Below, piece by piece: positions 9,099 through 61,053 of a stretch of 64,000 nucleotides of DNA. Position 1 is the first letter of the stretch; each line of letters starts with the position of its first letter. Made by a program: the position numbers and the translations under genes. Origin of the DNA: Pseudomonadales bacterium (GTDB lineage Bacteria > Pseudomonadota > Gammaproteobacteria > Pseudomonadales > Ketobacteraceae); assembly GCA_002708905.1 (NCBI GenBank), contig PAPM01000024.1, positions 62,001-126,000 on the forward strand. Reading direction: 5' to 3'. The notes under the pieces were generated by a model that had not been told where the DNA came from, did not search any database, and saw only the letters and a program-made list of their open reading frames with translations.

Positions 9099-12000
9099 CA
9101 GTTTATGAGCTGATGGCTAAGTTGGGTGCTGCCGGCATCAAACTATGGGTCGAAGAGGGCCAGCTCAAGTTTAAAGCCCCGAAGGGTGCCTTAACTCCTG
9201 ATCTGAAGCAGAACCTGATTGATAACAAGCAAGCGGTGATTGCCTTTTTGTCGGAGGCAAAAGTAGGTGAGTCCGGTGGCGACTCCCAGATTCCCCTTGC
9301 AGATCGATCCCAACCTGTGCCCTTGTCTCATGCTCAGCAAAGGCTGTGGTTTATTGAGCAGCTGACACCGGGTAGCAGTACTTTTCATATTCCCGCAGCG
9401 TTGTACCTGACGGGTATTCTCGATATCCAGGCGCTGGAGCGTGCGTTCCTCAAATTGGTGCAACGGCATGAAGCATTACGCACGGTCTTCCTCCAGGAAG
9501 GAGAAGAGCCCTGTCAGGTGGTGCGCGAGATGGAGCGCTTTTCGATTCCTTTTGAATCCCTGACGGAGCTGCCGGAGAGTGAGCGCCTTGCAGAGGTGAA
9601 GTCCCGGGTTGAGAGAGAAGTCCGCACCTCATTTAATTTAAACGAAGGGCCTTTGATCAGGGCTCGTCTGTATAAGCTGGACGACAACAAGCACGGGTTG
9701 ATCGTGACCATGCATCATATCGTCACTGACGGCTGGTCCATGGGGATATTCGTGCGGGAAATTTCCGCCCTTTACGCTGCAGAACGTATGGGGGCAGCAG
9801 CACCTTTACCTGAATTGCAGATTCAATATCCGGATTTCGCGGCATGGCAGCGGGAGTGGTTGCATGGGGATGAGCTGGAAAGGCAATTGGGTTATTGGCG
9901 GCGTAATCTGGATCATGCTCCTGCTCAACTGGCGCTACCCTTTGACCGCCCCAGGCCGGCATTGCAAACCCTTAACGGCGCGACCCGGCATCTGCAGCTA
10001 AATGATTCAATTGTTACCAAGTTGCGGGCGGTGGCGAGAGAGTTTGATACCACATTGTATGTGGTGATGTTAACTGCTTACAAAGTGGTTCTGTCCAAAT
10101 GGGCGCAGCAAAGTGATATTTGCGTCGGAATGCCTATTGCCGGGAGAACCCGGGCAGAAGTGGAAGGGCTGATTGGTTTTTTCGTAAATACCCTGGTGAT
10201 TCGCAGTCAATTTGGCAGCAACCCGACTTTTAGAGAACTGCTGGCGCAAGTAAAAGAAAAGGTACTGGGCGCCCAAGGGCATCAGGACGTTCCGTTCGAG
10301 GCCATCGTTGAGGAGCTGAACACACCCAGAAACCTGAGCTTTTCCCCTTTATACCAGGTTGCATTATCCCTCACCAGTGGCGATGGTACGGCAAAGAAAG
10401 CCGTCGTCGGAGGTTTGGAAATTGAGCCCATGCCCATTGACCTGGTGGCGGCTCGTTTGGACATGACCATGATGCTGGTGGACCACGGATCCAGTGTCGA
10501 CGGTATGCTGGAATACAACACGGACCTGTTTAACGCTGCCACCATTGAATTGTTCATTTCCCATTTTGAACGGGTGTTGGAATTGTTTGGCAACAATCTC
10601 GATACCAGCGTCGCTGCTTTACAGTTGTACGATAATAAGACGTTGCTTGAGAAGCTGGGTCACGCTCAGGGAGCAGAAACCGTGCTTCCACTCAGTCCCA
10701 TGCAAAGGGATTTCTGCCTGGACAGCTTGCGGGATCCGGATAGTAACCGTAACAGCATCGGTTATTTCGCCAGACTTCCTGATGTTGATTGTGCTGACGC
10801 AAGTATTACAGGAAAAATCCGTGATGCGTTGCAAAGTGTTGCGAACGCCAATCCATTTTTACGCAGCCGGGTGATACCCAGCGCTTTGCCGGGCAGTGAT
10901 GCGTTATATCAATCAATTCTGGAACAGGACTCTGTTCATTTTGAAATTCTGGATTGGTCAGGAAGCACTGGGCCAGAGCACGAACTCCGGGAAAAATTGA
11001 CCGCGCTGGCTTTACCCGGCTGGAACGTAGAGAGTGTTCAGCTGATCCGGCACTATCTGGTTAAAGCCGATAGCGATCAGTGTTATCTGGTGGTGGCGGC
11101 TCATCACTCCATTTTTGACGGAATCAGTAAGCTGCGTCATTTCCAACAGTTTGCACAGGCATTTAATGGCGAAGCTTTGCGCTCTGTTTCTACCTCGGAA
11201 ATTTCCGGTTGGCTGGTTGAGCGTACGTCCAAAACAGATCGTGCCGGTGGATTGGCGTACTGGTCCGGTGAGCTGGCAGACTACGAGCCTCCAGCCACCC
11301 GCAAACATCAGGTCGGGGCGACGGTTGTTCAGAACTGGTTGCTTAGCGGCGAGAGCCATCAGCAGCTGCTTGACTGGTGCAAGAAACACGCTGTCTCCAC
11401 TGCCAACTACTTGCGAACGCTCTATGCGCTTACTCTGCAACAGTGTTATTACCACTCGGACGAGTTCGTGCTGGTGGATGCAGCTGGCGGACGGGAAGCA
11501 AGCTCCCGGGATTGGGTCGGGTGTGCTTTTCAGTTTACACCTTATGTACAGCATAAGACACAGGCAGCCGGAGTAATTGAACTGCTGCAACAGAACCGGG
11601 CATGGAAGAAGACAGTGGGGGATGCCCAGTATCTGTCCATGCTGGCCCGTTCGTCATTGCTCTCCCGGGATGCACTTGAGTTCCAGTTTAACTATCGATT
11701 GCCTGATATTACCCAGTCCGTCCCCTGGTTGGGACAACAAACCGTTATCCATCCGGTGCAGCCTGATAATGCCGGCACAGTGAAGCTACTCGTAACGCCG
11801 GATGCGTCATCCATTGATTTGCGGCTGAGCTATCACGACGCTGAATTTGAAGGCTTCAAACTGTTGCAGCGGATGCAACAGGTGCATGCGCAAATCCAGG
11901 CAGGTGCTACCGAACTGCAGGCGCTCAAGTGGCTGTTGCCGGACGAGGAAACTAAGCTGCGTGGCTTTGCGGAAGGCGTCGAACAACCCATTGGCCCGAA

Positions 12001-15000
12001 CCTGTTGGAGCGCTTTAAGCAGCAAGTCAGTAGCCAGCCCGACTTGGTTGCGCTTATCTATCAAGGTGCTACCTTAACCTATCGGCAACTGGATGCACTG
12101 AGTAATCAGGTGGCTCACTTTCTTTTGTCGAAAGGGGTTACCGGGCAGAGTAAAGTGGCCTTGTGCGTTAGCCGTAACCTGAATTTGTTGCCCTTGTTCC
12201 TAGGGGTTGTTAAGTCCGGCGCTGCCTACGTGCCACTGGATGTGAATTATCCTGCGGAGCGCATTGCGTTTATCCTGGAGGATAGCGGCGCCGAGCTCTT
12301 AATAACGGAGTCCTGTGTTCAGGGCCGTTGGGCCCAGGATGGGGCACGACCGAATGCATCCAGCCTGATTCTGGCGGACGATCTCCAGGGCCTGGTGAGC
12401 GGATTCTCCAGCTCGACACCTGAGGTGTCCATTACCCCGGATTCCATCCTTTATTACGTTTACACTTCCGGTTCTACAGGGCAACCCAAAGGCGCCGGTG
12501 TATTTCATCGGGGTGAAGCCAATCTGCTGGATTGGTATCTCGGGCTGTTGCAACCCACCTGTGATGATCGTTTTCTGCTGATCTCCGCCATCGGGTTCGA
12601 TCTGACCCAGAAAAATTTGTTCGCCCCGATCTGCAGTGGCGCGGCATTGGTTCTGCCATCCCAGGAATCCTATGACCCGGATAGTCTGGCTTTGGATATT
12701 CAACAAAATGGCGTCACGATAGTGAATGGTGCGCCTTCCGCCTTTTATCCTTTGATCGATATGCCCGAAAAGATCACCACACTGCGGCATGTGGTGTTGG
12801 GCGGCGAACCCATACGTATTGATCTGATGCGGGGCTGGCTTGCCCATCAAAATCACAGTGCGCAGACAACGCTTACCAATAGCTATGGCCCTACCGAGTG
12901 CAGTGACGTTGTTGCATATCACTCCAGCACCCACTTGGCCGAGGGCTTGGATTCGATCCCAATCGGTAAGCCAGTCGCAAACACCCATCTGTATGTTGTG
13001 AACAAACAGGGTGCCATGATGCCTTTCGGGGCTGCAGGTGAGCTGAGAATCGCAGGCGCCGGTGTTGGCGCCGGATACTGGAACCGGGCTGAACTGAACG
13101 ACGATGTTTTCCTGGATTGTCCTTACCATAACGGCCGTTGGTATCGCACCGGAGATATCTGTCGGCTCAATCATGATATGGAAATCGAATACATTGGACG
13201 TTCTGATTTTCAGGTGAAGCTGCGCGGATTGCGAATCGAACTGGGAGAGATTGATACACAGCTTAAAGCACTTCCCGGTGTCAACGATGCCGTTTCCATT
13301 GTCAGGGACGATTTGCTGATTGGTTACGTACTGAGTGATTCTGTGGTGGACACCGTTCTTGCCAGGGAAGAGTTGGCGAAGCATCTGCCTGAATTTATGG
13401 TGCCCACTGCTATTGTCAGTGTGCCGGTCTGGCCGTTGACCCCCAATGGAAAGATTGATCGCAAAGCCTTGCCCGAACCTGCTCTTAATCAGCAACAGGA
13501 ATTTGTTGCCCCCCGTAATGACAGCGAACAACAAATTGCGGATATCTGGTGCCAGGTTCTCAAGCAAACTGAAATCAGCGTGAAAGCCAACTTTTTTGAA
13601 GCGGGCGGACATTCCCTGTTGGCCACTCAGGTGGTCTCCAGAATCCGCAAAGCGTTTGATGTGGAGATTTCGGTCAGGGCGCTGTTTGAAGCTCCCACCA
13701 TTGAAAAACTGGTGCGATACATCAGTACGGCCTCAACCCAGGGCGTGGACGCGCCACCACTGGTGGCTTTGGACCCACCGAACCGGGACACATTGTCTTT
13801 TGCGCAGTACCGGTTGTGGTTTGTGGATCAGTTAAACCAGGGGAGCAGTGAATACAACCTGCCATCGGCGCTGAAGATTTCGGGCCCATTGAATGTGGAC
13901 GTGCTGGATCGTGTGTTCGGTGAAATCATCGCCCGGCATGAGGTGTTGCGCACGAATTTTGGCGAGGCCGACGGTGTCCCTCAGCTACTGGTCCATGATC
14001 CCAAACCCTGGCGTTCAGAGATTTATGACCTGACGGCTTTGTCTGACGCTGAACAACAGAGTCGAATCACGCAATTGGTGGATGACGACGCGGCCCGTGT
14101 CTACGATCTGCAGCACGATGCATTGATCAGCACAGCCATCATCAAGCTCGCGGCAGACAGTCATATTCTGCTGCTGAATATGCACCACATTATTTCAGAC
14201 GGCTGGTCGTTAGGTGTCCTGGTTCAGGAAATTCAGGCGCTGTATCCGGCATTCTCTGCCAATCAATCGTCGCCGTTGCCGCCGCTCCCGATCCAGTATT
14301 CTGACTTCGCTGTCTGGCAACGCAACTGGTTGCAGGGAGAAACGCTGGATAACCTGCGGGAATATTGGCAGGAGGCTTTGCGTGGTGCGCCGGATGTGCT
14401 GCGTCTGCCCACAGACAAGCCCCGACCCAAGCACCAGACTTTCAACGGCGCCCACTATTCATTGGGACTAGGCAAGGCGTTGTCACAAAAGCTAAACCGG
14501 TTCTGTGAGCAGAACGATCTCACGCCCTTTATGGTGTTGATGGGGGCCTATCAGATTATGCTGTCCCGTTATGCGGGACAAAGGGACATCTGTGTGGGCA
14601 TCCCCATCGCCGGGCGCAATCGTGCGGAGCTGGAAGGGCTGATCGGCTTTTTCATTAACGGTTTGGTGATCCGGACCCGTATGGAGGACAACCCATCCGC
14701 AGAGGAATACCTGCAGCAGGTTAAAGAAGTGGCATTGGGCGCTTACGCGCACCAGGACATGCCGGCGGATCTTCTGCTGGATGCCATTAAAATGGAGCGT
14801 ACCGCCGACACCTCTCCAGGAGCGCAGATAGGCTTCGCCTTGCAGAATGTTTCCCAGGAAGATCTCCATGCAGAAACAGCAGGGTTGAGCATAGAAACCG
14901 TACCCAGAGAACACAAAACGGCAAAATACGAGTTGTCGTTGATTCTGCAGGAATCGGATGACGGATTCGGTGGTGTATTTGAGTACAATACCGATCTGTT

Positions 15001-18000
15001 CCTTGAATCCACTATTACAAGGATGACCAGCCACTTCACCCAGTTGGTGAGTGAGCTAATTGATCATCCGGACTACATGATCGATCAGCTGCCCATGTTC
15101 CCGCTGGACAGCCTGCACAGCCTGCTCAATCTGGATCCGGCTGAATGCGAACTGCGTGTTCTGTCCCCAATGCAGCGGGACATGTATCTGGACACCCTGC
15201 TGGAACCTGACACTTTAAAAAACAGTCTTGGTTACCACTTTATTACCGACGGTGAGTTTGATGTTGACTTATGGGTGCAGGCGAGCAAACAACTTGTTGC
15301 GCAATATCCGCTGTTAAAGGCCACCATCCAACGTTCCGATCTGCCCTATACTGACGTCGCCTATCTCAAGATTCCGTATGTTAAAGAGCCTGCGCTTGAT
15401 CTCACTGTAGAGGATTGGAGCGACCGCGATACCTCCGATGAAGCCGCAGCGCAATTTGCCCAGAGTCTGATCTGGCGACCCTATGATGTGCACGGCGAAC
15501 TTAGCCAGTATTATGTTTACAAGCTCAATGCCGGTCGTCATCTGGTGGTCTTCAGGATGAACCACATTGTGCTCGATGGCGCCGGTATGGCGGTACACCT
15601 GATGAACTCAATTGCTTGCGCGGAAGCACTGCAGTCCGGACAAGCCTACCAGCCCGCGCCCGACATTTTCGATCAGTACGTGGAAGACAACAGTCGTCGC
15701 ACCGACAGTTCCGCAGTGGTTCGCTATTGGAAGGAGCAAAGTAAAACGCTGGAGGCACTGGATTTTTCCTTGCCACCGGGTAGCCAGGGTTCCGGGACCC
15801 GTGTAGAACAGTCGTTACGCCTGTCAGACGCCCATTGGCAGAGGTTACAAACCTACTGTCGTGACAACAGAATTACCCCTTCGCTTTACTTTAAAGCCCT
15901 GTATGGCCTGTTGATTAACGCCTATTGCCGAGGTGAAGACGACTTTTATGTGTCGGAAGTGGTAGGCGGTCGTGTTGGACAGCACAAGCGGGCCTTCGGT
16001 AATTATTTTCAGGTGATGCCGGTGGTGTTTCCCAAGGAACTGTTTGTTGGACATTCCCGCGTCACCGCCTTATTTGATCATATTCGTCAGTATCGAAAAT
16101 CGCTGCGTGCCAATGCCAATATTTCGTTGTTGGCCCAGCGTCGCTTGCTGCCCCAGGGGCGGCTGCATTTCATGTTTAATTATTACAACTTCATTCCGAC
16201 CACCACCTTGTTCGGCACCGAAATCAAATTGAAAGCCTATCCCCAGGTTCAGGACGGGCCGGTGCAATTTGTGGTACATGAACAGGATGGCTGTCTGGAC
16301 CTCAATCTCATCTATCTTGATGACTTGTTTGCCGACTTGAATTTTCTGCAACGCATGGCGCAATTGAGCGAACAGATATTGGGCGGCGTTATGGATGTTC
16401 ATGGGTTGGAACTACGCCTGGCGAAAGAACAGCCCTTGACGGCCGCTGCCACGAACTGCAACACAACTTTTACCATGGCAACGGTGGTTCATGGCTTTCT
16501 GCAACAGGCGGAAGCAACCCCGGACGCTGTCGCAGTCAAACACGGCAACACCCAGTTGACCTATCGGCAGCTAAATCAGCAGTCTTCCGGCTTGGCCGCG
16601 CACTTGGTGGAGCAGGGCGTGCAACCGGGCTCTCGAGTGGGCATCTGTCTTGATCGCAGCGTGGATATGTTGGTATCCGTGTTGGCGGTATTGAAATGTG
16701 GCGCTGCTTATGTGCCTATGGATTCCAATTATCCAGCAGAACGCCTGGCCTATATCCTGGAAGACTCTTCTGCACCGGTGCTGATTACCCAGCAATGTGT
16801 ACGTGACCGAATCCAGGATGCTATCTCCGGTAAGTCCTGCAATGCCCTGGAGCTGGATAAGGACACCGCTTGGCGCGATTATGCCGAGGACAGGGTTCCT
16901 CAGATGCCGAACGGTCATGATGGCATCTATGTCATTTATACCTCTGGTTCCACCGGGCAACCCAAAGGCGCTCAGGTGACCCATGCAGGGGAAGTCAATC
17001 TGCAATCCTGGTATGTGAATGATCTGGGTATCAATGCAGATGACCGGTTCCTGCTGATCAGCGCGTTTGGCTTTGATCTGACGCAGAAAAACCTGTTTGC
17101 GCCATTGCTGGTGGGCGCGACTCTCGTGATTCCGGAGATGGAGGACTTCGACCTGAACCAGGTGGCAAACACAATTGCCGCTGAGCAGATTACCGTGGTG
17201 AACTGTGCGCCCAGTGCTTTCTATCCCATTGTTGAAGACAGCGCCATGGCGGGCTATCCGTTCTCCAGTTTGCGTTATCTGATCCTGGGCGGGGAGCCGA
17301 TTCGGCTTGATGCCTTGCAGGCCTGGTTGGATCAGTCCGGTTGTAAATTGATTAACAGCTATGGGCCGACGGAATGTACTGATGTCGTGGCCTACCATAT
17401 TTTCGACCGGCAGACCGATGGTTCCAGCCTTCCTATTGGTAAAGCAATTGCCGGGGCGGATTTGTACGTGGTCGACAGTGCGGATCATATTCTGCCTGCC
17501 GGTATTGTCGGTGAGTTATGTATTGCCGGTGATTGCGTGGGCTTGGGTTACGTCAACAAGCCGCAGCTTACCTCAGCGGTATTTCAGCAGAATCCCTATG
17601 GCGATGGGCTTTGGTATCGTACCGGCGATTTAGTGCGGCAGCGTCCTGATGGGGCCATTGACTACATCGGCCGCAAAGACTTCCAGGTCAAAATCCGTGG
17701 CTTGCGTATTGAACTTGGTGAAATAGAGACGGCCCTGAAAAAACTGCCGGGCGTCGTGGACAGCCTGACCCTGGTACGCAATGAACAGCTGATTGCCTAC
17801 GTGGTAGCCAATGAATCGCAATCCACTGAACAGGTGAGGGTACGGCTAAGGCAGGCCCTGCCGGAATATATGGTGCCAGCTGTCGTCATGACGCTACCCA
17901 GTTGGCCGTTGACGCCGAATGGCAAGATCGACCGCAAAGCACTTCCGGATCCGGATCATACCGGGCGACCGGCCTATGTGGCGCCGCGCAACGAAACTGA

Positions 18001-18280
18001 AGAAAAACTGGTCGAAATCTGGCGCGAGGTGCTGGGTGTAGACAAGATCGGTGTGCACGACAGTTTCTTCGATCTTGGGGGGCATTCATTGCTGGCCGCG
18101 AGAGCGGTGGCGAAGTTCAGGCAGGTGTTTGAGGTGGATATCCAGCTGAGGTCACTGTTTGAGCTGCACACGGTGGCCGATATTGCCCAGTACCTGGATA
18201 CCATGAAGTGGGCTGCACAAACGGCTGAGCAGGTGAGTAGCGGGCAGACTGAAGCAGGCAGGGACGAAGGTTTTCTGTAA
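9095..18280 (+). CDS. NRPS2: docking-C-C*-A-T-C-C*-A-T
   Basis: Two-module synthetase of 3061 residues, translationally coupled to NRPS1. Residues 1-52 form a TubC_N-type docking domain. Module 4: C (75-500, HHIVTDGWS), a second condensation-like domain C* (530-937, HHSIFDG), A (970-1460), T (AGGHSL). Module 5: C (1566-2000, HHIISDGWS), C* (2019-2430, with NHIVLDG in place of HHxxxDG), A (2461-2950), T (LGGHSL). Both A domains carry GFDLTQKN. Hand-read codes are DLKNVGSDVK and DLKNIGSDVK, which I cannot assign to a known residue. The first C has the QQRLWF signature and the second the related YRLWF form, both of the LCL type, so the incoming residues are expected to be L. The C-terminus ends DEGFL, like the other donor tails here. 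There is no E, methyltransferase or TE domain. The unusual point is two condensation-fold domains in each module. Confidence 0.97.
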   Translation: MTVYELMAKLGAAGIKLWVEEGQLKFKAPKGALTPDLKQNLIDNKQAVIAFLSEAKVGESGGDSQIPLADRSQPVPLSHAQQRLWFIEQLTPGSSTFHIPAALYLTGILDIQALERAFLKLVQRHEALRTVFLQEGEEPCQVVREMERFSIPFESLTELPESERLAEVKSRVEREVRTSFNLNEGPLIRARLYKLDDNKHGLIVTMHHIVTDGWSMGIFVREISALYAAERMGAAAPLPELQIQYPDFAAWQREWLHGDELERQLGYWRRNLDHAPAQLALPFDRPRPALQTLNGATRHLQLNDSIVTKLRAVAREFDTTLYVVMLTAYKVVLSKWAQQSDICVGMPIAGRTRAEVEGLIGFFVNTLVIRSQFGSNPTFRELLAQVKEKVLGAQGHQDVPFEAIVEELNTPRNLSFSPLYQVALSLTSGDGTAKKAVVGGLEIEPMPIDLVAARLDMTMMLVDHGSSVDGMLEYNTDLFNAATIELFISHFERVLELFGNNLDTSVAALQLYDNKTLLEKLGHAQGAETVLPLSPMQRDFCLDSLRDPDSNRNSIGYFARLPDVDCADASITGKIRDALQSVANANPFLRSRVIPSALPGSDALYQSILEQDSVHFEILDWSGSTGPEHELREKLTALALPGWNVESVQLIRHYLVKADSDQCYLVVAAHHSIFDGISKLRHFQQFAQAFNGEALRSVSTSEISGWLVERTSKTDRAGGLAYWSGELADYEPPATRKHQVGATVVQNWLLSGESHQQLLDWCKKHAVSTANYLRTLYALTLQQCYYHSDEFVLVDAAGGREASSRDWVGCAFQFTPYVQHKTQAAGVIELLQQNRAWKKTVGDAQYLSMLARSSLLSRDALEFQFNYRLPDITQSVPWLGQQTVIHPVQPDNAGTVKLLVTPDASSIDLRLSYHDAEFEGFKLLQRMQQVHAQIQAGATELQALKWLLPDEETKLRGFAEGVEQPIGPNLLERFKQQVSSQPDLVALIYQGATLTYRQLDALSNQVAHFLLSKGVTGQSKVALCVSRNLNLLPLFLGVVKSGAAYVPLDVNYPAERIAFILEDSGAELLITESCVQGRWAQDGARPNASSLILADDLQGLVSGFSSSTPEVSITPDSILYYVYTSGSTGQPKGAGVFHRGEANLLDWYLGLLQPTCDDRFLLISAIGFDLTQKNLFAPICSGAALVLPSQESYDPDSLALDIQQNGVTIVNGAPSAFYPLIDMPEKITTLRHVVLGGEPIRIDLMRGWLAHQNHSAQTTLTNSYGPTECSDVVAYHSSTHLAEGLDSIPIGKPVANTHLYVVNKQGAMMPFGAAGELRIAGAGVGAGYWNRAELNDDVFLDCPYHNGRWYRTGDICRLNHDMEIEYIGRSDFQVKLRGLRIELGEIDTQLKALPGVNDAVSIVRDDLLIGYVLSDSVVDTVLAREELAKHLPEFMVPTAIVSVPVWPLTPNGKIDRKALPEPALNQQQEFVAPRNDSEQQIADIWCQVLKQTEISVKANFFEAGGHSLLATQVVSRIRKAFDVEISVRALFEAPTIEKLVRYISTASTQGVDAPPLVALDPPNRDTLSFAQYRLWFVDQLNQGSSEYNLPSALKISGPLNVDVLDRVFGEIIARHEVLRTNFGEADGVPQLLVHDPKPWRSEIYDLTALSDAEQQSRITQLVDDDAARVYDLQHDALISTAIIKLAADSHILLLNMHHIISDGWSLGVLVQEIQALYPAFSANQSSPLPPLPIQYSDFAVWQRNWLQGETLDNLREYWQEALRGAPDVLRLPTDKPRPKHQTFNGAHYSLGLGKALSQKLNRFCEQNDLTPFMVLMGAYQIMLSRYAGQRDICVGIPIAGRNRAELEGLIGFFINGLVIRTRMEDNPSAEEYLQQVKEVALGAYAHQDMPADLLLDAIKMERTADTSPGAQIGFALQNVSQEDLHAETAGLSIETVPREHKTAKYELSLILQESDDGFGGVFEYNTDLFLESTITRMTSHFTQLVSELIDHPDYMIDQLPMFPLDSLHSLLNLDPAECELRVLSPMQRDMYLDTLLEPDTLKNSLGYHFITDGEFDVDLWVQASKQLVAQYPLLKATIQRSDLPYTDVAYLKIPYVKEPALDLTVEDWSDRDTSDEAAAQFAQSLIWRPYDVHGELSQYYVYKLNAGRHLVVFRMNHIVLDGAGMAVHLMNSIACAEALQSGQAYQPAPDIFDQYVEDNSRRTDSSAVVRYWKEQSKTLEALDFSLPPGSQGSGTRVEQSLRLSDAHWQRLQTYCRDNRITPSLYFKALYGLLINAYCRGEDDFYVSEVVGGRVGQHKRAFGNYFQVMPVVFPKELFVGHSRVTALFDHIRQYRKSLRANANISLLAQRRLLPQGRLHFMFNYYNFIPTTTLFGTEIKLKAYPQVQDGPVQFVVHEQDGCLDLNLIYLDDLFADLNFLQRMAQLSEQILGGVMDVHGLELRLAKEQPLTAAATNCNTTFTMATVVHGFLQQAEATPDAVAVKHGNTQLTYRQLNQQSSGLAAHLVEQGVQPGSRVGICLDRSVDMLVSVLAVLKCGAAYVPMDSNYPAERLAYILEDSSAPVLITQQCVRDRIQDAISGKSCNALELDKDTAWRDYAEDRVPQMPNGHDGIYVIYTSGSTGQPKGAQVTHAGEVNLQSWYVNDLGINADDRFLLISAFGFDLTQKNLFAPLLVGATLVIPEMEDFDLNQVANTIAAEQITVVNCAPSAFYPIVEDSAMAGYPFSSLRYLILGGEPIRLDALQAWLDQSGCKLINSYGPTECTDVVAYHIFDRQTDGSSLPIGKAIAGADLYVVDSADHILPAGIVGELCIAGDCVGLGYVNKPQLTSAVFQQNPYGDGLWYRTGDLVRQRPDGAIDYIGRKDFQVKIRGLRIELGEIETALKKLPGVVDSLTLVRNEQLIAYVVANESQSTEQVRVRLRQALPEYMVPAVVMTLPSWPLTPNGKIDRKALPDPDHTGRPAYVAPRNETEEKLVEIWREVLGVDKIGVHDSFFDLGGHSLLAARAVAKFRQVFEVDIQLRSLFELHTVADIAQYLDTMKWAAQTAEQVSSGQTEAGRDEGFL
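10681..11905 (+). other. C* domain of module 4 (inserted condensation-like domain)
   Basis: Condensation-fold domain lying between the normal C and the A domain of module 4. It starts with LPLSPMQRDFCLDSL and has an intact HHSIFDG motif at 11102-11122. It lacks the WS residues that follow HHxxxDG in the first C domain. Boundaries are approximate. Confidence 0.8.
15151..16385 (+). other. C* domain of module 5, first His replaced
   Basis: Second condensation-like domain of module 5, starting VLSPMQRDMYLDTL. The active-site motif at 15560-15580 reads NHIVLDG: the first His is Asn, while the second His (catalytic in true C domains) and the DG remain. Boundaries are approximate. Confidence 0.8.
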
Positions 18281-18379
18281 GATTCAGGAAGCGGTACAAC
18301 AATTCCGTCTGCAGGGGGTCATAGAGGTTATACTTGGTTAGGAAGAATAACTAAAACTCTAAGCGATTTAGGTGTTATC

Positions 18380-20161: not shown

Positions 20162-20248
20162 CCCCTTTAAACTTCCCGATAAATCCACGAAAATTAACAG
20201 TTTACCTCATCCTGATCAGCACGCACCGCGTCAGGCGTAAACGGTACG

Positions 20249-20254
20249 TATACT
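20249..20254 (+). promoter_or_regulatory. possible -10 element upstream of NRPS3
   Basis: A TATACT hexamer lies 31 nt before the NRPS3 start, in the 124-nt gap after the GGDEF gene. I see no convincing -35 at 16-18 nt spacing. The same hexamer occurs at 18329-18334 before the GGDEF gene. This is weak evidence that the cluster has internal promoters. Confidence 0.25.
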
Positions 20255-20285
20255 AATAACAATAACAGCGGAACACAGGAAGAAT

Positions 20286-31421: not shown

Positions 31422-31462
31422 GGGGCGGTAATGGTCCACTTTTGGCTCACCACAAAGAACGA

Positions 31463-31477
31463 TAAGAACAATTCTTA
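31463..31477. repeat. small palindrome upstream of NRPS4
   Basis: TAAGAA-CAA-TTCTTA is a perfect 6-bp inverted repeat with a 3-nt centre, 31 nt before the NRPS4 start in an 87-nt gap. It could be an operator half-site pair, but A/T-rich palindromes of this size also arise by chance. Confidence 0.3.
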
Positions 31478-31508
31478 CCAGGTAAAGTGACAGGAAAACT
31501 TTTGCTAT

Positions 31509-34500: not shown

Positions 34501-37500
34501 ATGCCGAACAAACGGCGTTGATACACGACACTACGGAATTAACCTATAGCCGGCTCGACTCTTTAGTTAATCAACTGGCAAACTGCCTGGTTGAGCAGGG
34601 CGTCGCTCCCCAGGATCGGGTAGGTGTTTTGCTGGGGCGCTCCCAATGGTCTGTCATATCGGTTCTGGCTGTTCTGAAAACCGGAGCGACTTACATTCCT
34701 ATTGAACCCTCGTATCCCTGTGAGCGGGTGGAATACATTCTTTCTGATTCCAAGGCCTCATTGTTGATTACCGAGTCTTGCCTGCAGGAGAAGGTAACCG
34801 GGTACGTGGGCAAGAAACTGGAGATTGATGATCTTTCTTCTGGGCTGCAAGTTTATAGCGATGCCTTTACGTTGCCTGATATCAAAGCGGACGATTCGAT
34901 CTACGCCATATACACTTCCGGCTCGACCGGCAAACCCAAAGGTGCGTTGGTTTCCCATATTGGCGAAGTTAATCTGCAGCAATGGTATACCTCACTTTGT
35001 GGTTTCGATGAAACTGATCGTACACTGATTATCAGTGCTTTCGGCTTTGACCTGACCCAGAAAAATCTGTTTGCGCCACTGTTGTGTGGTGGTGCAGTGG
35101 TTATCCCGAAGATGGATGAATTTGATGCGTCGGTTGTGGCGGCAGAAATCCATCGTCACCGCATTACCCACATCAACTGTGCGCCCAGTGCGCTCTATTC
35201 CATAGTGGAAGATTGTGATCAGCAGCGGGCCAGTGAATTGCAATCCCTACGCTGGGTGTTTCTGGGTGGTGAGCCCATTCGACTCTCCGCATTACATCAG
35301 TGGCTGCAGTTTCCCACTACCATGGCCCAGGTCGTCAATAGTTACGGACCCACAGAGTGCACGGATGTGGTGTCCTATCACGTACTGCATAACATCGCCT
35401 CTGAAAACACCTTGATTCCCATTGGCAAGCCCATCTGCAATACCGACCTCTATATTCTGGACAGCAACCTGTTGCCTACCCCAATGGGTGCAGTGGGTGA
35501 AATCTGCATTGGTGGTTTAGGCGTAGGTAAGGGCTATATCGGTCGAGACGACCTCAATACTGAAGTGTTTGTGAAGAGCCCGGTTCATCAGGAGATAATA
35601 TACAAAACCGGTGATTTGGGGCGTTTTATTCCTGACGGCAGTATCGAATACATTGGACGTAAGGATTTCCAGGTTAAGGTTCGCGGGCTGCGTATCGAAC
35701 TGGGAGAGGTGGAGACGGCTATCAAGTCTCTGCCGGATATGACCGACGCTGTGGTCCTGGTAAAAGACGACGCCCTGGTTGGTTATGGCTTAAATGCCAA
35801 TGGTTTAATGGTGCAGGACTGGCAGTCTCAATTGCGGTCAAAATTGCCCGACTACATGGTGCCGGCTCACCTGATTGTGCTTGAGCAATGGCCCCTAACC
35901 CCTAATGGCAAAATCGACCGCAAGGCGTTACCCGAACCCAGTGCGCTGGATTCAGGCCAGGAATACGTTGCTCCACGTAACGAGTTGGAAACCAGCATTG
36001 CCGAAATCTGGGCGCAGGTACTTAAGCTTGATCGCGTAGGTGTTGTGGAGAGCTTTTTCGATCTAGGTGGTCATTCACTGTTGGCAAACCAAATCGTCTC
36101 TCGCATTCGGAAGCTTTACAGTATTGAACTGCCTATTCGTGACCTGATGCTGTACCCCACGGTGGAGCAACTCGCCAACCGGGTGCTCAAAGCGCAGCGA
36201 TCCGAACAACTGGGAGAGATCGTACCTGTGCCTCGGGATCAACGCATCCCGTTATCGGCTTCCCAACAACGTCTGTGGCTGCTTGACCGGATTGAGCCGG
36301 GTAACCCAGCCTACCATGTGCCATCCGTGGTGACCGTAAAGGGCCCTATTCAACTGGATTTGATCCAGGCGGCATTTGCCCAGGTGGTCAACCGCAATGA
36401 AGGGCTGAGGGCGATTTTTCAGGAAGATGAAAACGGCCCTTACCAAACTTTTTTACGCGAATCAGACTGGCAACTGCAAGTAGTCGACGCCACCGGCTTC
36501 GACGCGGCTGCCGTTGAAAAACAAGTGGCCGCCCTGGTGCTTAAGCCCTTTGATCTCGAACAGGGTCCGTTGTTCCGGGCTGGAGTACTGAAGCGATCTG
36601 AGGAAGAGCACCTGCTGGTTGTGGTGTTGCATCATGTGGTCACTGATGGTTGGTCGAACGGATTGTTGGTACGTCAGCTGGGTGAAACCTATATACAACT
36701 GTTGTCTGGGAATACGCTGGTGCAGCCAGCTGCTTCAATACAGTATGCCGACTTTGCTGCCTGGCAACATCAATATCTGCAGGAGACCTTGGATGCAAAG
36801 ATGGCCTTCTGGAAACGTGCTCTTGATGAAGTTGCTGCGTTAGAACTGCCCCTGGATTTTCAACGGCCTTCCGTGCAGACGTTTGCCGGATCGAATATCA
36901 GCTTTACGCTACCCAAAACCGCCAGTGATGCATTGAACCAATTAGCCAATCGTTTTCAGGTGACGCCATTTATGGTGTTGTTGGCCGCCTATGGTGCGTT
37001 GTTGCAGCGCTACTCCGGCCAGGAACGCTTTGCTGTGGGCACGCCTGTGGCAGGGCGCGATCGTCCTGAGTTGGAGGAGGTCGTTGGCTTTTTCGTTAAT
37101 ACCGTGGCAATCCCTCTGTCACCGCAACCGCAACATTCGTTCTCAGAATTGCTGGAGCAGGTAAAAGACACTTCCCTGGGTTGTTTCGAGCATCAGGATA
37201 TACCTTTTGAGCAGATCGTCGAAGAACTCAATCCCCTTCGGGATATGAGCCGCTCACCGCTGTTTCAGGTTATGCTGGCTTATCAGGACATTCCTTTGGG
37301 CGAGGCCGGAGTCAATGCAGGACAATTAGGGAATCTTGCGCTGGAGCCTTATGATCTTGAGCTGAACACTGCAAAATTTGAACAGACTCTGACGTTGTGG
37401 CCGAGCGCTGACGGAATTTCCGGCTCATTAACTTATAACACGGATTTGTTCTCCAAGGCATCGGCCCAGCAGTTTGTTGCTCATTTTACTCGATTCTGCG

Positions 37501-40500
37501 AGCAGGCATTCGTACACCCCGAAACTGCACTGCATAAGGTCGATGTGTTGTCCGAGCAGGAAAGAGATCAACAGTTAATTATCTGGAACCAATCGCAGCA
37601 CGAGTACCGGGCAGATCGTGTTGAGAACCTGATTGCCGAGGCTGGATCAAAGTTTCCGGATGCCGTAGCGGTGAGTCAGGGCCACCAACAGTTAACCTAT
37701 CGCGTATTGCAAACCAGCTCTGACGCGGTGGCACAAACGCTAGTGAATTCCGGGATTAAGCGATCAGATTTTGTCGGCGTGGTGCTCGATCGTAATTTAC
37801 ACCTGATGTCCGTTATCCTGGGTGTAATGAAAAGTGGCGCAGTCTACGTGCCCATAGACGCTGCTTATCCAGAGGATCGGATTCGTTATATTTGTGAGCA
37901 ATCGGGTATTCAGACCGTTATTTCACTACCTCACCTGATTGAGAATCTGCCGGATGAGTTACAAATTTTGAATCTGGCGGATTTACCGCAGTGGTGTGAG
38001 ACGGAAACATCCATTCCATCTACAGAATATCTGGATGACGACCTCATCTATGTAATTTACACCAGTGGTTCCACCGGAAAACCCAAAGGAACAGGCGCCT
38101 ATCACCGCAGTGAAGCCAATTTGCTTTCCTGGTACACCGGTCAATTCAACATGACGGCCAATGACCGTGTGTTGCTGTTGAGTGCTATCGGTTTCGACCT
38201 CACTCAGAAAAATTTGTTTGCACCATTAACCTGTGGTGCCCGCCTGGTGGTGCCGGATTTCCAGGAATACGATCCGGCGCGGATTGTCGATGTCGTCGAA
38301 CAGGAAGAGATTACCTGGATCAATTGCGCCCCCAGTGCCTTCTATCCACTGGTTGATAATCCGGATGACTGGCACAGGTTGACCTCTCTTCGCTATGTGT
38401 TTCTCGGCGGGGAGCCCATTAACATGGGGCGGCTTGCCGGTTGGTTAATGCAATCAAGCTGCCAGCTGGTGAACAGTTATGGTCCGACCGAATGCGCGGA
38501 CATCGCTTCCTGGCATGCCATCGATCCGCAGACTGATATCGAAAAGCCGGCAATACCCATTGGACGGCCAAACTATAACGTCCAGTTGTACGTTTTGGGG
38601 GAGCATCAGGAACTGTTACCCAAGGGCGCCATTGGTGAACTGTGCATAGGCGGAGACGGTGTTGGCCCGGGCTACCTGAATCAGCCGGAGCTTACCGATC
38701 AGGTCTTCATTGAGAATCCCTTTAAGCCAGGCAGTAAACTGTATCGAACCGGTGACCGGGTGCGTTACCAGTCGGATGGCGCTGTCGTCTATCTTGGTCG
38801 CCGTGATCATCAGATTAAACTTCGCGGTTACCGGGTTGAAGCTGGCGAGATCCAGGCAGTCATTAACCGGCATGATCGGGTCAAAGAGTCCCTGGTGGAC
38901 GTACTCAAGAATCCGGCTGGTGTCGATCAGTTGGTGGCCTGGGTTGCCACTGACGTTGCTACGGACATTGCCACTGAAACCGCACCCCTGATATCAGATC
39001 TGAAGACTTTGGCCAGAACTCATCTGCCGAGCTTCATGGTGCCGGACTCATGGGTGGCCATATCTGCGTTTAAATTGACTGCCAATGGTAAGATCGACCG
39101 CAAAGCGCTGCCCAAGCCCGACTGGGCGGACCGGAGCGAAACCTATGTAGCGCCTCGTAACGAACTGGAAGTCGCGCTGGCTGAGATCTGGATGCAGGTC
39201 CTCCATCTGGATCAGATTGGCGTACATGATAATTTCTTTGAGCTGGGCGGGCATTCCCTGTTGGCGACGCAGGTGGCGTCCCGGGTCAGGTCAAAGCTGA
39301 ATTTGGCACTTCCCATTCGAGATCTGATGGCGCAGCCCACCATTGCAGAGCTGGCACCACGCCTGACTGCACTGGCGCTGGAAGATGAATTACCCCTGGT
39401 GGCTGTGGATCGTGGGCAACGGCTGCCTCTGTCTTTTGCGCAGCAGCGGTTGTGGTTGCTGGATAAGATCGATTCCGAGTCTCTTGCTTATACCGTACCT
39501 TCAATCATTCGGGTAAGAGGACCACTTAAACCTTCGATTCTGGAATCGGCACTGTCACAAGTGCTGAATCGCCATGAGGGGTTAAGAACTGTTTTCCATG
39601 AAGATGAAGAAGGACCCTATCAAGTCATTCTCGACGCCCAGGCATGGCCTTTACCTCTGGTAGATGTAGAGCATGAGGCGGGAACAACTGATACGTCTGC
39701 GATTCTGGCTGAGTGCAAGCGCCTCATGGCTATTGAATTGATGACGCCGTTTGATCTGGTCCAGGGGCCGTTGTTCCGCAGCAAATTATTCAAGCTGGCG
39801 GAAGATGATTATGTTTTCCTGGTGGCCATTCACCACGTGGTTACCGATGGCTGGTCCATGAATGTATTAATTCAGGATTTGGCCCAGGCCTATGTGCAGC
39901 TCGACCTCCATGACGAGGTGTTCTTTGACAGAATGCCGTTCCAGTACGCGGACTTTGCAGTATGGCAGAGAAACCGACTGGATAAATCGGAACAACAGCG
40001 GCTGCTTGATTACTGGAAGCAACAACTGGATGGGGTGGAACCGCTTAATCTACCACTGGATTTCCAGCGGCCGGCGGTACAAAGTTATCACGGCCACACC
40101 GTTCGCTTTGGTATCCCAAAGTCCACCCGTCAGGCCCTTCATGACCTGGCCGTAAAGAACAGTACCTCACTGTTTGCTTCCCTTCTAAGTGGATTCTTTA
40201 TCCTGTTGCGTCAGTATTCCGGGCAGAGTGATTTCTGCATAGGAACACCGGTGGCTGGGCGCGAACGGGCGGAGTTGGAGAAAGTGGTCGGCTTCTTCGT
40301 CAACACCCTGGCAATTCGAGCGGATGTGTCCGCCCGGGACAGCTTCAGTTCAGTACTCTATCGAGTCAAACATGCCGTGATGGATGGTCTTGCTCATCAG
40401 GAAATGCCTTTTGAGCAAATTGTGGAAGAGGTTGATCCAACACGGGATATGAGTCGCTCACCGATCTTCCAGGTAATGCTTGCTTATCAAAACCTGCCTC

Positions 40501-43500
40501 AGGAACAGCAGGCGCTGTCAGGTTCCGAAAATCTGGGTGATATCCAGCTGGAAGCGTTTGATCCCGGCGTGGATTCCAGCAAGTATGAGCTCACCATGAC
40601 TTTGTGGGAATCAGTGGACGGGCTGGGGGGATCGCTCCAGTACAATACGGATCTGTTCAAAACAGAGACCATCGATAGGATGGTCTCTCATTTCGTCTCG
40701 CTGCTCGAACAGGCGGCGGCTCAACCGGAAACACCAGTTTATCAACTGGACTTTCTGACAGAGGAGGAACGGGATCAGCAGTTGATCGAGTGGAATCTGA
40801 CGGAGGTGGACTATGACCGTGAAATCACCCTCGATCAGGCACTTTCAAAGGCACTGCAGCAACATGCTGAACAAATTGCTATCCGCTGCGGCTCTGAGTC
40901 GCTGACCTATCATCAGCTCGATCGTTACTCCAATAAAGTTGCCGCGTTGTTGCAACAAAAGGGCATCCGGGCGGGTGATAAAGTGGCGTTCTGTTTGGAT
41001 CGCAACTTGCACTTAATGACGGTTTTGATCGGCATCATCAAGGCCGGCGCAACCTATGTTCCACTGGACGCATCCTATCCAAAGCAACGGTTGAACTACA
41101 TACTGGAAAACGCTCAAGCCGGTGTGGTTCTGACACAACAACACTTGCGTTCAGCATTGCCGGATGCGGGTCAGGTGTTGGTGTGGGAAGAGCTGCTAAC
41201 CGATATCGACGCGCTGCCCGAAATGATAAACCCGGTTCAGGTGAGCCCCGAACAACTGCTTTACATGATCTTTACGTCAGGCTCAACCGGGAATCCCAAG
41301 GGAACCGGTGCTTACCATCGTTCTGAGATGAACCTGCTCAATTGGTATATAAGTGAATTTAATATGGTGGCATCCGATCGGGTGCTCCTGTTGTCTGCCG
41401 TTGGATTCGATCTGACCCAGAAAAACCTGTTTGCACCATTGTTGCAAGGCGCCAGCCTGATTGTTCCGGACTTTAATGAATTCGATGTCCAGAAGCTTAC
41501 CACTATCATCGACAACGAACGGGTTACCTGGCTGAATTGCGCGCCCAGCGCGTTCTATGCAATTCAGGATGAACCTGCGGATTGGCATAAGCTGGATACG
41601 TTGCGCCTTCTGTTCCTGGGTGGTGAGCCTATCAATGTCCCGCGTATTGCTGACTGGCTGAAGCATTCCCGCTGTCAGCTCATTAACAGCTACGGCCCGA
41701 CAGAATGCGCTGATATAGCAGCCTGGTATCCGGTTGATGTGGAGCGGGACTACAACGCTCCGGCTTTGCCTATTGGTCGTCCCAATTACAATGTGCAATT
41801 GTATGTGTTGGGGGATGAGCAGGAATTGTTGCCCACGGGAGCTATTGGGGAACTCTATATTGCAGGGGATGGCGTTGGCCCCGGTTATATCAATAATGCC
41901 GAACAGACGCAGGCAGCATTCCTGCCGAATCCCTACGCAAGGGCAACACAGATTTATAGAACCGGGGATCGGGTTCGTTACCGTACCGACGGTAACGTTG
42001 AATACCTAGGTCGACGGGATCATCAGATTAAATTGCGCGGATATCGCATTGAAGCGGGAGAGATCCAGTCTGTCATCAACCATGCCAGGAATGTCAAAGA
42101 CAGCCTGGTGGATGTGATTAAGGATGAAAACGGTATCCAGCGTCTGATTGCCTGGGTGGTGTTGGATGATCTACAGCAGGACTCCGATATGGCACTGAAA
42201 CAGGCATGCCATGATAAGCTTCCGGCTTTTATGGTGCCTGAACACTGGCTTTTGCTGTCTGAATTCCCGCTGACCCCCAATGGGAAAGTGGATCGCAAGG
42301 CACTGCCTAAGCCTCAAGTTCAGACTGATCATGAATATGTGGCTCCGCAGTCTGAGCAAGAAGCCGCTCTCAGCAAGTTGTGGGCAAGCATCCTGGGCGT
42401 TGATCAGGTTGGTGTAACCGATAACTTCTTTAACCTCGGCGGTCAGTCTTTGCTGGCCACCCGCTTGGTGAGTAGAATGTCACGTACGCTGGGTGTTTCC
42501 ATCCAGGTCAGGCAGCTTTTTGAAAATCCCAGCATCCGTTCTTTGTTACGACACCTGGAACACCAATCGAGTATTTTAGATCGACCCGCCATATCGAAAC
42601 GCCCCAACCCGGATCACGCCCCGCTGTCGTTTGGCCAGCAGAGACTGTGGTTCTTTGAGCAGATGAATCCGGGTACTCAGGCGAATAACATGCCGGTCGC
42701 CATCCGCGTCAAAGGGCATCTGGATTATGCGGTTCTGGAAAAGGCGTTTGTCGAGCTGATTCGCCGTCACGAGTCCTTACGTACCTGTTTTGCCACTGAT
42801 GATTCCGGCAATCCAGTCCAGATTATTCAGCAGAAAGTCGACTTCCGATTAAGTCAGGTGGATCTTTCCGATCTTGCGCCTCAAGCACGGGAAGATCAGC
42901 TTGGTTCTTTACTGGTGAGCAACAGCAACACGCCGATCTCTCTGCATCAAGCACCGCTGATTCGTGCCAGTATTGTTAGAACTGCAGCGAACCCACAAGA
43001 GCAGACTTTATTGCTGTGCATGCACCACATTGTTTCCGATGGTGCCTCCCAGGTAGTTCTGTTCCGGGAGCTTATGACCCTTTATATCGCCTATCTTTCC
43101 GGTCAACCCTCACCGCTACCTGAACTCAGAATCCAGTACCCGGATTTTGCCTACTGGCAACGGCGGTGGTTGGATGAACAATCGATGTCGCAGCAGCTCA
43201 GTTACTGGAAACAGCAACTACAGGGCGCACCGGCATTATTGGATTTACCTTTGGATAAGCCCAGGCCCAAGGTGCAAACGACCCATGGCGCCACAGTCAG
43301 TGCGGTATTCCCGTCGCCTCTGACAGAGAAACTTCGCAAAACCTGCGAGGAGAAGGGTGTTACGCCGTTTATGGCCACCTTACTGGCTTGGCAGGTTTTG
43401 TTAAGCCGGTTCAGCGGGCAGAAGGATATCCTGGTGGGTGTGCCTACTCTGGGGCGACACACGCCGGAGCTGGAAAACGTCATCGGTTTCTTCATACAGA

Positions 43501-46500
43501 GTCTGGTGTTGCGTGGTACTTTCGACCGCAACCCACTGCTAAGTGATGCCCTTGCGGCGACGAAGGAAACCGTTCTGCAGGGATTCTCCAACGGAGATGT
43601 GCCCGTTGATAAGATTGTTGAGCATTTGGGAGTCGCCCGCAATCCTGCCTATTCACCGCTGGTTCAGGTAGCCTTTCAATTATTGGACAGCGCTGGTTTC
43701 AATGCAGCACAACTGGCGGATCAAGCCAAGGTTGGGGATTTGGAAGTGGAGGTCCTGGGGGCTGATACGGCTTCGGCGAAGTTTGATCTTACCCTCAATC
43801 TGACACTGGATGGCGATCAACTGGGAGCATCACTGGAATACAATACTGATCTGTTCCTGGAATCCACAGCAAAAAATTTACTGGTCGGCTTCCAGCATGT
43901 GTGCGAGCAGATTGTGGAGGAGGGCCATAAACCGGTCGCCGCCGTGGAGATAATCGCTGCGGATCAACTGCTCGCAGAACTGGATTTGAATTCCAGCGAA
44001 TATGAGTCTGTGCAGCCCCTGTCGTCAATGCAATACGACATGTTCATGGATAACCTGGTGAACCCGAATTCATTGCAGAGCAGTCACGGCTGGAATATCC
44101 ATATTCATCGTCCCCTGGATCTTGATTTATGGCAGCGAGCCTTGCACACAGTGGTTCAACAACAGCCCATGATGCGTTCCCGGTTTGTAGCCGCGCAAAA
44201 GGCCAGTCTGGATATGGGGTATCTGGCCATCGCAAAAGAGTCCTTTCCCCAGATAGAGCTGATTGATAAGAGCGATGGTCCAGTGTCTGAGAGTGAGTTG
44301 GAGCAGCTTATTATACGGCTGATCTACAAGCCCTACGCTATCCAGAATGACGACCTGATTTCATACTACGTGGTAAAACTCACTGCAGATCACTACGTGG
44401 TAATCAGCGCTGTACATCACGCTATACTCGATGGCGCATCACTCAATGTTTTGTGGCTGCAATGGACAGAAGCTTACGAACGTCTGCTACAGGGACAGGG
44501 CTACGATATTGATGCTGTTCCCTTCGCTGAGTTTGCCCTTGTCGATCGCAGCATCATGGATACGGCACCGGTGTTGTCTTTCTGGCAGGAGAAACTGGCT
44601 GCCGTGGAGCCACTTTCGTTCTCTGTGCCGTCTCCGGTTCCACAGCCTTCCCATTTCGTCACAAAAGAGCTGTTTCTCAGTGATGACCATTGGGTTGCCG
44701 TCAAAGCTTTTTGTCGCCAGCAACGGATTACGCCTTCACTGTATTTCAAGTGTCTGTACGGTTATGTGGTGCAACAGTATTGTCGTGCTGATACGGACTT
44801 CTCCATTCAGGAAACCATGGGTGGCCGCATTAAAGGGCACTATGATGCCATGGGCTGTTATATTCAGGAGATTCCGTTCGTCTTTAGCAAGTCTTCGTTG
44901 GCGTCGGAGCAAAGGTTTGTTGATGTTCTTGAGTACGCCCGTCATTTCCAAAAAGACATCAAGGATTATAGGCTCATCTCCATCGGCAAGCAGTTGGAGT
45001 TGTCGCCAAAAGGTCGCATTGGTTTTATGTACAACTTCTACCAGTTCCTGGCCCAGTCTGAATTCTTGGGCGAGTCCTTCAGTCCGGAGGGAACCCCCAG
45101 CGACCCAGCCAACAATGTCCAGTTCGTAGTGACGGAAGTGGCGGGAAAGCTGAAGCTTAATCTGTTCTATCATGGCCACTTGTTTACCGACTTGGGCATG
45201 CTGCACAGGATCAATGCGTTGAGTGAACAGGTGCTCAGTGCGCCGGACATAAAGCTGAGTGAACTTGATTTGGTTGCCGATCCTGCAGAAAGAATCAGGC
45301 TGTTGGAAGATTGGAATAACACGGCCCGCGATTATGATCTCAGTCTGTGTGTTCACCAGAAATTCGAACTGCAGGTTGAGCGTGTACCGCACGCCATAGC
45401 CATTTCCGATGATCTTGGCTCTTTGACCTACGCTGAGCTGAACCAACGGGCAAATCAGCTGGCACATTACCTGATTGATCGCGGTATTCGCGAGAATGAT
45501 CTGGTGGGCTTGTGTGCCGAGCGCTCCTGCGCGTTTCTGGTGGGCATATTGGGAATCATGAAAGCCGGGGCGGCTTATGTTCCCATGGACCCTAAATATC
45601 CGGATGATCGGATCGAGTACATGATCCAGAATTCCGCCGTATCGGTTTTGATAACGCAGCAGCATCTGCGTGAGAAATCCAATGCAGTGGCAGATGGGGT
45701 ACATCGGGTGTGTCTGGATCAGGATTGGCCGGAGATTACCAAGTGCTCCCACAACAATCCTAATCTTGCTGTCGGTCCGCGTAATCGCGCCTACATGATT
45801 TACACATCCGACTCCACCGGCCTACCCAAAGGCGCGATTGTTCGTCATGATGGCGCCTTGAACCATATTGAAGCCGAGTGCGAGGTACTTGAGTTCCCGG
45901 GTGAGTTCAGTTTCCTGCAAACGGCCCCTTCCTCATCAGATATATCCGTGTGGCAGTTTGTTGGGCCGGTTACCCGAGGTGGCCAAGTGGTGGTATTGGA
46001 TGACGTCACCCATTCCAGAAAACTGTTTGAGCTGGTGAAACGGCATCGAATAGACGTTGTTGAATTGGTGCCCGTGGCGCTGCAGTTGTTGATGGAGCAT
46101 GTTCGACAATTACCACAGAGTGAGCGCAGTCTAAAGGACTTGAAATGGATGATGGCCACCGGTGAAGCCGTATCAGTGGAGTTGGTGAACGATTGGCTTG
46201 CCTTGTATCCCGATATTCCAGTGGTGAACGCCTATGGTCCAACGGAAGCGGCAGATGACGTCATTCAATGCTCCATTCATCAGCCGTTACCGGATTCGCA
46301 GAAATCTGTACCCATTGGTAAACCTTTAGGTAACCTTTCGGTTTACATCGTCGACGATCAACTGCGGCTGGTGCCTGCCGGTGTGCCGGGTGAAATCTGT
46401 ATTGGTGGTATCGGGGTGGGTGAAGGTTACTGGCAGAATCCGGAGAAAACCGCCGACGCCTTTGTCCCCGATCCGTTTATCGGCACTGGTGATACACGCA

Positions 46501-47933: not shown

Positions 47934-47935
47934 GG
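47932..47935 (+). promoter_or_regulatory. ribosome binding site deciding the aminotransferase start
   Basis: GAGG lies six bases before the ATG at 47942. The alternative in-frame ATG at 47930 overlaps the NRPS4 stop and has no Shine-Dalgarno sequence. Confidence 0.6.
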
Positions 47936-47941
47936 CATCGA

Positions 47942-49198: not shown

Positions 49199-49211
49199 TA
49201 GGGCTTTTTTA
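49187..49211 (+). terminator. Rho-independent terminator after the NRPS/aminotransferase operon
   Basis: A 7-bp stem AAAGCCC/GGGCTTT encloses a 7-nt loop containing the aminotransferase stop codon and runs into a T tract. It lies between two convergent genes and reads into the last codon of the opposite gene. It may work in both directions, although the T tract on the other strand is interrupted. Confidence 0.8.
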
Positions 49212-60994: not shown

Positions 60995-61023
60995 AACCCA
61001 AAGGCAACTGGATGTTTTTCCTG

Positions 61024-61053
61024 GTACGGCGCTGGCTTAAGCTTGCGCCGTAC
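61024..61053. repeat. perfect 9-bp hairpin after the pilin-like gene
   Basis: GTACGGCGC and GCGCCGTAC flank a 12-nt loop that itself contains the palindrome GCTTAAGC. It lies between the pilin-like stop and the TadG-like start. There is no T tract, so an mRNA-stabilising or partial attenuation role is more likely than full termination. Confidence 0.7.

Follow-up and report, generated by a model that had tools for sequence, protein, structure and literature searches.

The stretch of DNA analysed here (the window; 64,000 nucleotides, C23:62001-126000 within a 5.4-Mb genome) encodes much of a 14-module lipopeptide-type nonribosomal peptide synthetase (NRPS) line of Ketobacter or a very close relative, in which modules 6, 7, 8, 11 and 14 carry an additional condensation-fold domain, termed C*, between the ordinary condensation (C) domain and the adenylation (A) domain, giving the order C-C*-A-T with T as the carrier domain. 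C* is a separate condensation-domain subfamily, as judged from sequence comparison, and probably acts as an in-line acyltransferase for the side chain of the residue loaded by its own module. The A domain would load homoserine (or diaminobutyrate [Dab], Ser, Thr, Lys, or Orn) onto the carrier protein; C*, immediately before A, would acylate the side-chain hydroxyl or amino group through its HHxxxDG site, with an external acyl-CoA or acyl-acyl carrier protein as donor and a perhaps fatty acyl group; and the ordinary upstream C domain would then attach the peptide at the alpha-amine of the residue thus acylated. The predicted product is a lipopeptide of 14 residues, N-acylated and bearing as many as five extra acyl groups, namely four O-acyl-homoserines (residues 6, 7, 8, and 11) and one N4-acyl-Dab (residue 14). 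We infer this reaction, its donor, step order, and product from observed features of the architecture and subfamily, namely a bias in the residue loaded by the C* module itself, the occurrence of some C* as first-module domains, a retained catalytic His, the residues Gly36 and Arg409, the segregation of C domains paired with C*, and a neighboring Dab transaminase gene. The C* domains and the C domains paired with them are as follows.

10673-11968, + strand: C* of module 6, motif HHSIFDG (PF00668, subfamily profile); homoserine-type A domain, code DLKNVGSDVK
15146-16441, + strand: C* of module 7, motif NHIVLDG (PF00668, subfamily profile); homoserine-type A domain, code DLKNIGSDVK
21861-23171, + strand: C* of module 8, motif HHIVLDG (PF00668, subfamily profile); homoserine-type A domain, code DLKNVGSDVK
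33132-34439, + strand: C* of module 11, motif HHIILDG (PF00668, subfamily profile); homoserine-type A domain, code DLKNFGSDVK
43998-45314, + strand: C* of module 14, motif HHAILDG (PF00668, subfamily profile); Dab-type A domain, code DIWEMTADD
9299-10633, + strand: LCL-type C paired with C* of module 6 (profile comparison)
13769-15100, + strand: LCL-type C paired with C* of module 7 (profile comparison)
20481-21821, + strand: LCL-type C paired with C* of module 8 (profile comparison)
31707-33086, + strand: LCL-type C paired with C* of module 11 (profile comparison)
42606-43955, + strand: LCL-type C paired with C* of module 14 (profile comparison)

All five C* match PF00668, at 67.7-114.9 bits (E 1.1e-18 to 5.3e-33) in a whole-genome search and at 70.8-115.6 bits on sequence slices (cut-off 30.6), scores that exclude chance. 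The whole-genome alignment covers only ∼290-300 profile positions in four of the five, and the full-length status of C* rests on the subfamily profile and on an AlphaFold model of C* of module 14 (mean predicted local distance difference test score 90.1). Each is flanked by an ordinary LCL-type C domain upstream and by an A domain. Identity among the five is 21-34%, and 12-21% to the other C and epimerization (E) domains of the line. The motif begins with HH in four of five and with NH in one, and its second (catalytic) His, Asp, and Gly are present in all five. A first-pass annotation of the window had described five C-C*-A modules among eleven complete ones, with HHxxxDG intact in four and NHIVLDG in one; these observations hold, with limits agreeing within 70 bases at every end by the subfamily profile. 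Its numbering (4, 5, 6, 9, and 12) picked out the right modules, which are modules 6, 7, 8, 11, and 14 of a line starting to the left of the window.

C* stands apart from the condensation clades sampled in two trees, neither of which contained X or modAA sequences. In a FastTree tree of 276 domains (among them 79 C*, 139 LCL, 27 DCL, and 23 E), C* is monophyletic (79/79, support 1.0) outside LCL, DCL, and E. Placement within the LCL clade had been set beforehand as grounds for refutation; all 139 LCL domains fall separately from C* (support 0.947). A second tree of 261 domains, which added starter, dual C/E, and interface-like domains, again recovered C* as one clade (133/133, support 1.0), neighboring (0.946) a separate group of all 39 DCL and dual domains (0.965); of the five starters, four group in a clade of their own (0.987), and the fifth (G083) adjoins C* (0.887). 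C* thus belongs to none of the LCL, DCL, E, dual, and interface-like clades, and most starters are likewise separate from it. Relative to the clades sampled in these two trees, C* is distinct within the condensation superfamily, for which PMC10212144 mentions 18 curated C/E subtypes. In a comparison of folds, the CDA and RzmA starters are top matches, tied with many others. Four candidate starter columns were chosen on five starters and then checked on ten more. Starter-typical Gly36 occurs in 123 of 133 C*, 12 of 15 starters, and 0 of 35 DCL domains, and Arg409 in 129 of 133, 10 of 15, and 6 of 35, respectively; both lie outside the four commonest residues in 60 LCL domains.

The first-pass annotation had proposed that C* marks selected residues for modification in trans, recruiting a TauD-like or P450 hydroxylase in the manner of interface or X domains. 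That selected residues are marked is borne out below; recruitment of a trans-acting hydroxylase is poorly supported and, in our estimate, improbable. The fold is shared, as is the extra position beside A; one C*-bearing genome (G011) also has a siderophore-like cluster (L091-L092, G011:C6) that contains two TauD genes as well as an interface-like domain before a His-type A domain; and a TauD match is found in 16 of 31 C* genomes and a P450 match in 16 of 20. Against these points, interface-like domains form their own clade (5/5, support 0.983) and have the catalytic His in none of five, as compared to 130 of 133 C*. This interface-like set comprises one domain of the G011 cluster and four cyanobacterial domains, all before Asp/Asn- or His-type A domains, and its label is our own assignment from A code, sequence, and, in G011 and Nostoc NIES-3756 (two of the five), a TauD gene on the same stretch. 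Fifteen of the 31 C* genomes searched gave no TauD match, one of them the single-contig HdN1 (G006); the 15 come from a first search of 24 genomes, two of them without C* (none in 9 of 22 C* genomes), and a second search (none in 6 of 9), and seven of them are at least 90% complete and eight below. A P450 search of 20 C* genomes gave none in four (G030, G492, G505, and G620), and matches to both families are absent in G030 (96% complete) and G492 (85%). The residues marked by C* are, moreover, mostly of homoserine and Dab types and not Asp or His.

Identity with an interface domain was accordingly rejected on the position of C* outside the interface-like clade and the missing TauD partner (15/31). 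Identity with an X domain is likewise not supported: the X motif is given as HRxxxDD in PMC11546977, C* has xHxxxDG in 125 of 133 cases, and four of 20 genomes are without a P450 match. An X-domain structure scores 45 bits with the C* profile. Neither a TauD nor a P450 gene was found in the window or in C23:1-62000, other hydroxylase families not being searched; the first-pass annotation had likewise seen no hydroxylase gene in the window, and of the places it had named for a partner (to the left or elsewhere), the left flank is without genes of these two families. The window's genome has two TauD matches, on contigs C26 and C41, and the nearest P450 match (C23:155102, the only one on C23) lies 45 kb past the NRPS end.

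To count the residue bias, we took 115 internal C* modules with a specificity code (29 genomes, 57 contigs) and, as controls, 78 non-C* modules of the same contigs. DIWE..ADD is read as the Dab code, and Lys, Orn, Gly, Gln, Asp, and Ile/Val are likewise read from their codes. C* modules are of homoserine type in 87 cases, Dab type in 19, Ser in 3, Thr in 2, Lys-like in 2, Orn-like in 1, and glycine-like in 1, such that a nucleophilic side chain is loaded by 114 of 115 C* modules versus 36 of 78 controls (Fisher 1.3e-19). The bias persists with homoserine left out (27/28 vs 11/53; 1.2e-11) and with a single genome per genus (58/59 vs 18/55). Neighboring residues are unbiased (upstream p 0.44, downstream p 1.0), and the rule therefore concerns the residue loaded by the C* module itself. 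In a 12,141-residue synthetase of G505, C* precedes homoserine-type modules and one Thr module and none of the Gly-, Gln-, Asp-, or Ile/Val-like modules; C* is absent from two further Thr modules of that synthetase and from a homoserine-type module in a different G505 protein. Published homoserine codes include DLKNFGSDVK and DLKNVGSDVK (PMC7524897, PMC12283262), and PMC12283262 also gives a near-identical Ser code and the Thr code. The Dab reading of module 14 is backed by an adjacent diaminobutyrate transaminase gene above NCBIfam cut-offs, the likely source of its Dab.

Two further explanations are poorly matched to this distribution. A dehydrating or eliminating role of the modAA type, which had been raised earlier as a cryptic dehydratase, would be very improbable, as the Dab-type (19), Lys-like (2), and Orn-like (1) residues among the 115 cannot lose water, no more than 7 of the 57 coded residues preceding C* are of Ser or Thr type, and the modAA-type AmbE scores 58.5 bits with the profile versus 171 for the best chain. 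A non-catalytic C*, serving as spacer, gatekeeper, or dimer contact, has a precedent in VibF C1, a non-catalytic C domain which aids subunit contact (PMC5577590), and the motif is lost in two C*, L031 (module 6 of HdN1, G006:C1; HESVMDS) and L037 (G009:C22:115355; LKGLLDD), which are possible natural inactive variants. Such a role is nonetheless quite unlikely: xHxxxDG is present in 125 of 133 C* and the catalytic His in 130 (124/127 internal, 6/6 first-module), and a spacer is not expected to track the side chain of a residue. A second bond-forming step, listed in the first-pass annotation as an alternative, is favored by the evidence.

The nature of the acyl donor is suggested by six C* of five genomes (G008, G010, G012, G014, and G035), each of which is the sole C domain in the module that opens a protein; all five C* of the window are internal and not the first C of the line. 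The second cluster of G008, G014, and G035 comprises three synthetase proteins, of which the one with a thioesterase-like end and a second one open with a docking segment resembling TubC (by eye). The third has none and starts C*-A-T-E; it is most simply the initiator, because it lacks that segment and the thioesterase is on another protein. G010 and G012 have an equal protein start, and G035 has an additional C*-A-T protein with a different code. First-module C* score 289-316 bits as compared to 38-74 bits for the LCL profile, and they are nested in a clade whose 65 members are otherwise internal C* (support 0.92). No FAAL-like A match was found in the stretches read around these clusters of G008, G014, and G035, while the window's own FAAL-like domain gives 86 bits with the same profile. 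Because C* is the only C type in a module that apparently starts the line, and no fatty-acyl ligase was noted alongside, the subfamily can apparently use an outside acyl donor. A first-module C* would acylate the alpha-amine from such a donor, by analogy to RzmA, which takes acyl-CoA and whose cluster has no ligase (PMC7804268); for internal C*, we infer the step from outside-donor use to side-chain acylation.

This evidence also touches on the regiochemistry. C* might instead acylate the alpha-amine, as in icosalide, the chain continuing through the side chain or a hydroxyacyl group, or a peptidyl donor might form an ester or isopeptide branch; we consider these routes unlikely, though less so than the rivals above. 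The embedded starter C of the icosalide synthetase acylates the following Ser in vitro (PMC8949500), a first-module C* before a Val/Ile-like A domain can only acylate the alpha-amine, and the residue ends up doubly acylated either way. However, hydroxyacyl insertion needs no nucleophilic side chain, yet 114 of 115 residues have one, and by score the C domains paired with C* are of ordinary LCL type. In a tree of 122 paired and 83 single C domains, paired and single types are separated by 4 label changes (mean 64 and minimum 54 in 200 shuffles), which fits an upstream C domain accepting an already modified residue; the paired C of G505 and G620 originated within the single clade, and two single C are nested in a paired clade.

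Several observations weigh against side-chain acylation by C*. Inheritance of C-C*-A as a unit may give the same picture of segregation by plain linkage, and since modules duplicate as units and share ancestry, the residue counts are not independent. The nucleophile class was defined after the first C* codes had been seen, with later-read stretches fitting it; homoserine and Dab are assigned from specificity codes; one C* module (G035) has the glycine-like code DILQLGVIW; and 25 homoserine-type modules are without C*, 19 of them having the code DLKNFGSDI, which never follows C* in the set. By sequence, C* is nearest DCL and dual domains, not the four grouping starters, and profile scores against Protein Data Bank chains run in the same direction (bacitracin synthase 171 bits, PvdL C3, behind an E domain, 152, RzmA starter 73, CDA starter 47). 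The starter columns N351 (5/10) and Q416 (1/10) failed on the ten further starters.

A survey with a 20-sequence C* profile at E 1e-45 found C* in 28 of the order's 390 genomes, spread over six families, and in 4 of 369 genomes of a class sample, the window's own genome being counted in both. The best-scoring of four profiles decided whether a domain was called C* or another C type; on a five-sequence profile, the highest-scoring ordinary C domain, a DCL domain of G011, has ∼135 bits, versus ∼152 for the lowest-scoring C* accepted. The plasmid collection yielded no true C*. In the window's genus, the line occurs in all six genomes, each with five C*-like places. In another family, the 2.6-Mb genome G505 (94% complete) has C*-bearing open frames of 12,141, 6,896, and 6,875 residues (L192-L198).

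The cluster starts at C23:49667, ∼12 kb left of the window, and runs from an A-like domain and carrier, which we take from the signature to be FAAL-T, through modules 1-3 and on to module 14, which is followed by a thioesterase-like end recognized by eye; E domains lie within modules 3 and 4. The codes of modules 1-5 are presumably Ala-, Thr-, Val-, Ile/Val-, and Ile-like; modules 6, 7, 8, 9, 11, 12, and 13 have DLKN-type codes, and module 14 has DIWEMTADD. The A domain of module 10 (window 29781-30827) has the unusual code DPRHGGFQV, a DPRH... kind conserved in related clusters. Genes of the line and its surroundings are listed below.

3-9098, + strand: 3' part of an NRPS gene, modules 3-5 (gene start C23:58562, left of the window)
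9095-18280, + strand: NRPS gene, modules 6-7
20286-31421, + strand: NRPS gene, modules 8-10
31509-47933, + strand: NRPS gene, modules 11-14 and thioesterase-like end (by eye)
47930-49198, + strand: diaminobutyrate-2-oxoglutarate transaminase (NCBIfam PRK09264 628.7 bits, cut-off 438; EctB 591.8, cut-off 552.2)
49209-50405, - strand: stand-alone condensation/acyltransferase-like (WS-DGAT-like) protein, motif HHAITDG (PF00668 25.5 bits, under the 30.6 cut-off)
52160-52969, + strand: stand-alone thioesterase, type II by position (PF00975 173.8 bits)

Relatives of the stand-alone HHAITDG protein adjoin the cluster in G002 and G004 and lie ∼12.6 kb from the NRPS end in HdN1, with none in G008. A 7TM-DISM diguanylate cyclase gene (window 18380-20161; GGDEF 177.5 bits) is situated between NRPS genes, and near this junction the open reading frames (ORFs) of HdN1 and G008 have different starts (by eye). 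Small pilin- or Tad-like proteins are encoded downstream of efflux genes (window 60683-63999), with a like order in G002, G004, and G008 (by eye, ORF lists). Membrane-protein-like ORFs containing DDY, perhaps GT-C type glycosyltransferases (by eye), stand beside C* clusters, none being noticed in the window.

C17:36523-38349 and C58:59788-61680: DDY-start ORFs of G008 (by eye)
G014:C23:999-2606 and G035:C39:90921-92714: DDY-start ORFs of G014 and G035 (by eye)
C1:1941522-1943438 and C1:1949948-1951864: DDY-start ORFs of G006 (HdN1; by eye)

Taken as a whole, the gammaproteobacterial C* subfamily is, on a somewhat better than even estimate, a programmable in-line side-chain acyltransferase that would yield multi-acyl lipopeptides at chosen positions. 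If so, C-C*-A order would predict the positions of extra acyl chains in lipopeptides from genomes, would offer engineers a transplantable side-chain lipidation unit, and would account for a multi-acylated, homoserine-rich peptide of the window's genus. Ketobacter are alkane-degraders, for which a surface-active product would make sense. No description of such C-C*-A modules was found among the titles or passages of open-licence full-text literature.

Resemblance of C* to known systems is partial in each case. Like the interface domains of beta-hydroxylated siderophore synthetases, reportedly described by Reitz in 2019, C* is an extra condensation-fold domain near A that marks selected residues; unlike C*, the interface-like set falls in another clade, is without the catalytic His, and accompanies Asp/Asn- and His-type codes. 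By both tree and profile, C* is closest to DCL and dual C/E domains, whereas no C* module of the window comes after an E domain, and an LCL C domain precedes C* within each module. The icosalide synthetase of Burkholderia gladioli, compared by its published description (PMC8949500), also has an extra acylating C domain embedded in an internal module (module 3); there, beta-hydroxy acids enter the chain in one internal event, as opposed to up to five here with a side-chain bias. Starter C domains of the CDA, RzmA, and surfactin type share with C* a presumed outside donor, HHxxxDG, Gly36, Arg409, the apparent first-module position of some C*, and top fold matches (tied with many others). In contrast to these starters, C* forms its own clade nearer DCL and dual domains, is mostly internal behind a normal C domain, and is tied to residues with nucleophilic side chains.

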